Positions 52,801 through 55,800 of a DNA stretch of 64,000 nt are shown piece by piece. Each line of letters begins with the position of its first letter. Position 1 is the stretch's first letter. The notes under the pieces are model-generated. The model was not told where the DNA came from. It searched no databases and worked only from the letters and a program-made list of their open reading frames with translations. The DNA lies in contig JAIGNY010001179.1 in the NCBI GenBank assembly GCA_020152595.1, forward strand, positions 434,501 to 498,500, written 5' to 3'. Made by a program: the position numbers and the translations under genes. The stretch is from Chiridota heheva. Its lineage: Eukaryota > Echinodermata > Holothuroidea > Apodida > Chiridotidae.

Positions 52801-55800
52801 GTACTTAGAGAGTAATTTTTTTTTTTTAAATAACATTTTATATTAGAAAGTTAATTCATCTGGGCCACTTCATCTTATCCAGCACATTTTTATATGCACA
52901 GCAGGTGTTTTACATGCCCAGCGCATGTTTTCATCACCAGCGCGTGCTAGCGCATGTTTTAGATCGAGTCTGTTTGTTTTACGTGTGATGTGACTGAGCT
53001 GTGTGAAGATCAGACACGTGAAAAACTCAACGCACAAAGCTCTGCCCTGCAAAATGGCCCCCAGTTGAGTTGGAGTCACATCATAAAATCCCTCTATAAA
53101 AACTATTTGAAACTCTGAAATTTTCAGTCAGTTATTTTAAGCGTAAGACAGTAGATACAACCTTCATCCAATTCAATGAAAAGTACACAGCGCAGGTGGT
53201 TAGAACTATTCCATCCAGTGTGAATTGTTGTTAGGCCTACATTCAGTTCAGGTAACAATCTAGCTTGTGCCTTGGGAGATGGAATGCTTTCTGTCTTCTC
53301 ATCAAGACTGTTTTCTTGTCCTGTAATTATTCCAAAAAAACAGAGAAAAAGTTTTCAAACCATAAGGGTGCGTCACACATCTCTTTTAGGCAGCCCGTGT
53401 CCAAATGCCTTTGTAGCTCACTCTTGGCCTAGGCAATCAAGTTTCAAGGTTCATTTATAGGGTTCACCCAAAATAAAAATCCATAGGGCACTATCATTAT
53501 GGTCAATAAGAGAAAACATTAATTTTCGTGATTTCGACAAAAATTGCACATACAGTACCTCAACTGAAAACTCCCAGAAATCTAATTATTGTCTGATTTG
53601 TCATAATATCTCACCAAAAGAACAAAATCCCGCACCGCGAAATGGCTGAAAATGAGGTATTTTTGTGGAAAACTGACATTGTCAAAAAATGGCATTTTTG
53701 AGCAATAGGTACTTTCATAGCGTAACGTTAAAGGATAAGTTCAGTGGTTAAGGATGTCCATCTTATATGAAAGAGGACCTCAAAACAAACAAAATGGTGA
53801 AGAAAGTATTCAAATATCTTATTCCGTTAAGGAGATATTCAAGTTTAAAGCTCTGTCTTAACTGTGTAGAAGAAATGACTGGTGTAGTAAGTCTACTATA
53901 GAAAGTTGGTGTCCCCATCCTCACATTCTTAGAAATTGTAAATGTTTTAAAAGAAAAGTTTATTTAAATATTTTACTTTTTAATTATTTTTCCTCCAACT
54001 TTCTTCAGGTGGTACATTATAAATACCCATACTAGATTCAGTTTTACTTTTCTGACATATCCCATGGTTTTTAAGCCTCAAAATCGCAGGACAAAATATG
54101 ATAGAATACATAACGACTTTGAGGAATCTGAGGTTATGACATCACAACTAGTCTGATTTCAGTTGTTTCTACACAACTGATACCAACTTTAAACTTTAAT
54201 ATCTCCTTAATGAAATAATATTTTTGAAAGGTTTCTTCACTATTCAGTTTCTTTTGAAGTCCTTGTTCATATAAGATAGATTTGGTTGACCACTGAACTA
54301 ATCCTTTAACCCTTACTCTACCATGCGGCGATACTATTGCTGTTTTCAAACCACCTTTTTCTAAAAATAAAATTGGGACTTTACCACAATCCTACAGGAG
54401 TAATCTTGGTATCATTTTAAAGTACTCGGATATTTCTTTCATAAAATGAAACTTTTTCATACAGGTCATATTACATAATTTTAAGAAAAAGTACATCGAA
54501 AAGGGTAAAACTTAAAATTGCCGAACAATTGACATTTGTTTGTTTTTTTCTCTTTTAAATCTTACAATAACTTTAAGATTACATTTTTGCTTCAAAATCA
54601 AACACGCAAGTCTTAAGACATAATAGTATTGGTTTCTGGTATAATTTGTATAATCCCTACATGCAATCTTTTCTTCTAGAGAAATTTCTTCAAAATTTTA
54701 TGAATTTCTGCCATTTTTGACACGTTTTTTTTCAAAAAATTGTGTACCCAAACCGTACATCACACATGCTTCATTGAACCGCCGTTTAAAAGAATTTGAA
54801 ATTTCCTTTTATTTGATATATAAATAAAGGCATACCCCCCTCTATTTAGAACCTGTCCTATAAGAAATATATTACACCTCTTCAATTTGAATAGTCGGTG
54901 CAGAGGGAATGTATGCGGCTAGCATGCGAGCGCTTCGGGTTCGAGTCTCACCGTGACCACTGCGTAATTATTTTTCTGCTGCAGCTTTCAGGGGTCGTTT
55001 GACTTTTATCATTTTTGATGTGTTTTTATCTTTCCTTTCTTTCTAAAAATTATAGATTAGTATCATTGGAAAGGAAATTTCAAAAAGAATCCAAATAGGT
55101 AACACAAATCTCTATTTTCAATACTTACAAGAAGTTACACTTCTGCAAAGATTGACCATTTGTAGACCAAATTTAGCCAAAAATTGCTTAGTTTGCATAA
55201 TTTTGTCCAATATTTCCTAAATTGGTTTTAATTACTCAAAAAATAAATATCTTAGCATCTATTCCAACCAAACTTGTAACGTAAGAAAATGAAAGGAAAG
55301 TTGTCAAAAATGCATATGAAAAAAAAGTTACGAAAATTGAGGTCGCTTTTTTTAAAGCCTTGGTAGAGTAAGGGTTAAGGCCTAATTTTTTCCACAAAAA
55401 TACCTCGCTTTCAGCCATTTTGAGGTGTGGAATTCTATTTTTTGCTGAAATATCATGAGATATCATTGACCGTAACAATAGTGTCCCTAACATTAGGCCT
55501 ACGGATTTTTATTTCGGGCGAGCCCGAATCAAAGTTTACAAATGTTTTTCTCACATAAGCCTAGTTACATTCAAGCATAATGCATTTATTATTAACTGAA
55601 GATACATTGAAGCAGCATTTGCTTCATTACCTTTAAAGATTCTGAAAATCAAAACTCACAAGAAAACCATCCTAGTATAGCGGTAAATACCTATGTAAGG
55701 ATTTTTGCTTTTTCTTTTTTAAATTTGGTTTTATTCCGTTGTATTTATGTATTTCAACTATTTTCCTTTGTCGTTTTGGGTCTTTTAAGTAGAAACTAAG

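Follow-up and report, generated by a model that had tools for sequence, protein, structure and literature searches.

Adjoining TTAA-specific MITEs within a foldback element of Chiridota heheva: a probable case of successive insertions

Miniature inverted-repeat elements (MITEs) of rice and maize, as reportedly described by Jiang and Wessler in 2001, sit within or against other MITEs at shared target motifs, although their superfamilies and targets differ from those treated here. The hallmark of piggyBac elements is a CC[C/T]T end next to a TTAA target (PMC2872659). The CMITEs of the coral Acropora are MITEs of this type, about 100 bp long, that duplicate TTAA and have 13–14-bp ends beginning with CCC; they occur in tandem arrays with repeated spacers, and CMITE-IN is a composite that was formed by insertion into a TTAA (PMC2872659). 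Excerpts of a Xenopus study give AGGRR ends together with TTAA as the mark of T2-MITEs and Kolobok, and include, in Table 5, full-length Kolobok copies with AGGAC ends (PMC6004289). Both Kolobok and piggyBac are reported from the bivalve mobilome, in passages that are silent on joined TTAA insertions (PMC10294476). In the 64,000-nucleotide stretch of Chiridota heheva DNA analysed here (the window), three small non-coding transposons are nested within or adjoin one another: an outer foldback (outer), an inner foldback (fb) and a third element (el). The locus is an ordinary nesting of TTAA-specific MITE families, a known kind of arrangement, and two of its families resemble the two superfamilies that the bivalve passages place together in one animal group.

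Strand is given below only for arms and terminal inverted repeats, the other features having none assigned. The inner foldback fb (53732–54305, 574 bp) has a Kolobok/T2-like signature, and its left arm (53732–53850, + strand) and right arm (54187–54305, − strand) become 53727–53850 and 54187–54310, 124 nt each and 82% complementary, when the TTAA is counted in. The initial annotation had rightly called it a foldback, but its right end, CTGAACTAATCCT, differs by one letter from a perfect inverse of the left end, AGGATAAGTTCAG. Next to it lies el (54310–55374, 1065 bp), which has ends CCCTTACTCTACCA and a piggyBac-like signature; its terminal inverted repeats (54310–54323, + strand, and 55361–55374, − strand) are perfect over 14 bp, or 18 letters with the TTAA. 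Around both lies outer, whose left part (53456–53727) begins with the family start TATAGGGCTCACC and folds with the right part (55379–55525), the latter supported by arm pairing, the fold and paralog alignment. Pairing between the outer arms covers one run of 56 nt (84%) and another of 28 nt (86%), and with both inserts removed the outer flanks fold almost end to end; the coordinates first given for these arms stand, except that the left part continues to 53727 and not just to 53700. As initially annotated, and in agreement with the letters, TTAA stands at 53728–53731, left of fb, at 54306–54309, where fb and el have it in common, and at 55375–55378, right of el and followed by GGCC of outer. 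The first and last of these mark the original TTAA of outer, and the middle one is part of a junction that recurs across the genome. No open frame of at least 150 aa overlaps outer, fb or el.

Each of the three belongs to a family repeated through the window's own genome, as shown by matches across 1.1 Gb in 3744 contigs. The el end with its TTAA, TTAACCCTTACTCTACCA, has 12,652 exact matches (reversed control, 0), and the fb end with TTAA has 50,006 matches at ≤3 mismatches (control, 3); both counts so far outnumber their controls that the observation is not due to chance. In the 310 kb that were read, fb makes up 2.5%. For the left part of outer, a first look gave 787 candidates, of which 40 were scored, and the 39 besides the window are 79–86% identical at their best match. 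TA or TATA precedes the family start of outer in the window and in several of seven paralogs, a sign, at the left end, of a possible TA target.

That TTAA is the target of both inner families, as initially proposed, is borne out by the flanks of their copies. Among the 40 best-scoring el copies, all read with flanks and not a random draw, TTAA lies on both sides of 24 and adjoins 63 of 80 ends; several of the remaining ends are one letter off TTAA or are without an el end. Ends of fb that are free of el also stand next to TTAA (L010, the left end in L012, L025, the far end in L030 and window position 45961), while some others adjoin TCAA, TTGA or GTAA, and the left fb end in L005 adjoins none of these four. 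The site shared by fb and el in L005 now reads GTAA. In four of the seven outer paralogs (L053, L055, L056 and L057) the alignment runs straight on through the insertion point, where both inserts are missing and the letters are TTAA in L053 and L055 and TGAA in the other two; the remaining three have no clean alignment at that point.

The joined pair might be a single composite that transposes as one, a reading which its joining in the window and the 22 exact genomic places of the 31-letter fb-TTAA-el junction would favour. However, we consider it extremely improbable and reject it: the junctions involve now one end of el, now the other, and three or more kinds of partner, 37 of the 40 best-scoring el copies do not touch fb (three do), and fb copies distant from el carry TTAA at several ends. 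Any fb at all is present in 13 of the 40 stretches read around el, fb adjoins opposite el ends in the window and in L005, and in L030 el is located within an fb arm. Eight of the 22 exact junction loci were read by eye and look like independent events, with fb joined to the left end of el in two, to the right end in two, to a second long relative in two and to mini-type elements in two. Since most of these el copies have no fb touching them and four of seven outer paralogs are without either insert, fb and el are independent insertions. This agrees with the non-composite reading of the initial annotation, and loci with one element alone, which it had suggested looking for, are the rule and have TTAA at their ends. 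The initial annotation had also proposed that one element inserted into the target duplication of the other, and sequential insertion is supported. The structure TTAA-fb-TTAA-el-TTAA is identical under either order, so it permits the reverse case, in which fb entered the TTAA at the left flank of el. Measured leave-one-out, each copy against the consensus of the other copies, fb in the window diverges at 57 of 571 positions (10.0%) and el at 55 of 1063 (5.2%; P=0.0004), which is about twofold, and the disparity is larger in L005 (10.6 vs 3.3%) and L030 (14.3 vs 3.3%). The four junction loci among the eight that carry el itself show the same when pooled (fb 25/152 vs el 29/604, P=9e-6), and this makes the reverse order unlikely. 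The absolute age of fb is uncertain because its consensus rests on 12 copies, in which a possible mix of subfamilies would inflate that age. We infer from the greater divergence of fb that el most likely landed second, on the TTAA flanking fb.

The superfamily of each transposase is likewise inferred, from the end signatures. The perfect 14-bp ends of el, CCCTTACTCTACCA, agree with inverted repeats of 12–19 bp that start with CC[C/T]T, and its TTAA flanks agree with the duplication typical of piggyBac (PMC2872659), so that el fits a piggyBac-type MITE, as its CCC ends and TTAA had initially suggested. It is like the Acropora CMITEs in its target duplications and in ends of similar make and length; the likeness is one of description, and at 1065 bp el differs in length and also in terminal sequence. 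The consensus start of fb, AGGAT, agrees with AGGRR in four of five letters (its AG suits the RR start of the superfamily and its AGGA the motif, from which the final T departs), and several fb ends away from el, as well as the 50,006 genomic ends, carry TTAA. By its end signature fb thus comes close to the Kolobok/T2 type. The AGGAT-ended family had initially been called less typical, but in the excerpts on Xenopus T2-MITEs and Kolobok it is AGGRR with TTAA that marks these groups (PMC6004289), so such an end is not odd in a TTAA family. The elements described there are like fb also in high copy number, non-autonomy and AG-starting ends. Both fb and el are assigned by signature. Autonomous relatives with a DDD transposase had been suggested as a check. 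The piggyBac transposase domain PF13843 matches the genome at least 117 times (of 167 candidates, 116 were scored), and none of the four transposase loci whose flanks of 0.9–1.2 kb were read has el ends beside it; these four were rejected as autonomous partners, and none is tied to el.

We therefore propose, with a probability of roughly 0.87, that the locus arose in three steps, each the cut-and-paste insertion of a non-autonomous DNA transposon, with fb and then el entering outer. An old foldback MITE, outer, would have inserted first; a Kolobok/T2-type MITE, fb, would then have entered a TTAA near its centre and duplicated it; and a piggyBac-type MITE, el, would finally have entered the TTAA at the right flank of fb, leaving one TTAA in common. 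Such meetings of fb and el are frequent, given their common TTAA target and the great abundance of fb.

A further suggestion was that TTAA duplications left by one family are reused by another. The junction of an fb end, TTAA and an el end has 168 places in the genome at ≤3 mismatches (control, 0); 100 of these were listed and include all 81 places at ≤1 mismatch. As an internal control, a TTAA within the fb arms gives 57 junctions at ≤3 mismatches, and a second internal TTAA (site C) gives 38, of which 21 are at ≤1 mismatch, all of them listed. At ≤1 mismatch, flanks have 81 junctions at 37,718 sites and the internal site has 20 at 29,629, a ratio of 3.2 (P=5e-7), where one letter was free to be A or G in the internal count, recounted from the junction list, and where the genome-wide denominator on the internal side is that of one site (site C is similar in 351 kb, with 17 sites vs 18 and 16). 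A first, sample-based estimate of the ratio was 3.6 (interval 1.8–7.2), and with exact el ends only it is 3.9 (55 flank vs 11 internal junctions). Compared with random placement, which is a valid expectation for either insertion order, exact el ends are 2.2 times as frequent as expected at flanks (55 vs 24.9) and 0.56 times at the internal site (11 vs 19.6). The factor of 2.2 is rough because the total of about 9.6 million genomic TTAAs was scaled up from 351 kb of selected loci with a higher fb content than the genome as a whole (their 18 flank sites imply 56,000, the actual number being 37,718), and it shrinks if genomic TTAAs are fewer; the expectation also counts array-internal ends as genome-facing, and the flank excess may therefore be larger.

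The 168 joins, and a frequency at ≤1 mismatch of 2–4 times two yardsticks of chance, speak in part for the suggestion, but the counts do not separate a preference for the duplication from a preference for inherently good TTAAs. On the first reading, TTAAs that flank Kolobok-type copies are favoured by the piggyBac-like family and the duplications are recycled, for which the flank ratios and the excess over random placement argue, as does L075, an fb copy with piggyBac-like elements of two different kinds, one on each flank. Against it stand the variation in letters neighbouring the sites, the single internal site and the extrapolated TTAA total noted above, and the local data, in which 3 of 40 el copies lie in or against fb, as expected from the 5.9% of 2404 TTAAs that do so (P=0.43). 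Two of the 40 copies adjoin an fb flank, where 0.4% of TTAAs lie (P=0.012); since the window, picked for its join, supplies one of them, the local flank test is left with one other copy of 39 and gives no evidence. We regard such recycling as tentative, with odds short of even. Under the other reading, sequence context, bendability or open chromatin would suit any TTAA transposase at certain sites, and fb and el would hit these independently. The flank excess fits this as well, el insertion contexts are non-random (G follows TTAA in 24 of 63, compared with 16.6%, P=5e-5), and GG stands on the outer side of the site in the window; we hold it to be possible, at odds not far below even. A single-letter context was tried as the cause of the flank excess and rejected, since site C has the same T before its TTAA as the fb side of a flank yet few junctions, and that letter alone is therefore no explanation. 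The counts fit reuse and a shared taste in sites alike, and the junction excess modestly supports reuse. That TTAA copies made by Kolobok-type elements are preferred docking sites for the unrelated piggyBac-type superfamily, the families building on one another's duplications at 2–4 times chance and creating joined arrays with several independent ends, is a conjecture that we consider less likely than not.

The TTAA-reuse idea hence gains modest quantitative support, and more than 100 junctions of two TTAA-specific families in one genome constitute a natural experiment on duplication reuse versus shared site preference. For annotators they are a warning against taking every such joined pair for a composite.

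Several minor features were seen alongside. A B-box-like motif, GGGTTCGAGTC, lies at 54890–54965 of the window and also in the el consensus; a tRNA gene within el was considered and rejected, given that ARAGORN predicted none, either in the window or in the el consensus, and Rfam had no match at E≤1 within 53000–56000. A variant end, CCCTTACTCTCCCA, recurs in the junction lists and suggests a subfamily related to el, and seven internal-site junction places have one identical string, perhaps as copies of one nested element. A 101-bp mini element has the outer 37 bp of el in common and matches the CMITEs in length. It forms modular mini-spacer-mini arrays with a period of ~245 bp in L041–L045, L047, L048 and L050, which resemble the tandem arrays of the coral elements; those in L041, L042 and L045 begin and finish with a TTAA-flanked mini, and the others are mutated or truncated at one end. 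L046 has a lone mini within an fb copy, at a TTAA, and in L049 an el-type end and a mini are separated by a minisatellite whose repeat unit is about 35 bp. Elsewhere in the window, 40286–41903 and 18409–19341 are long tandem repeats with open frames in several registers, including IY runs.
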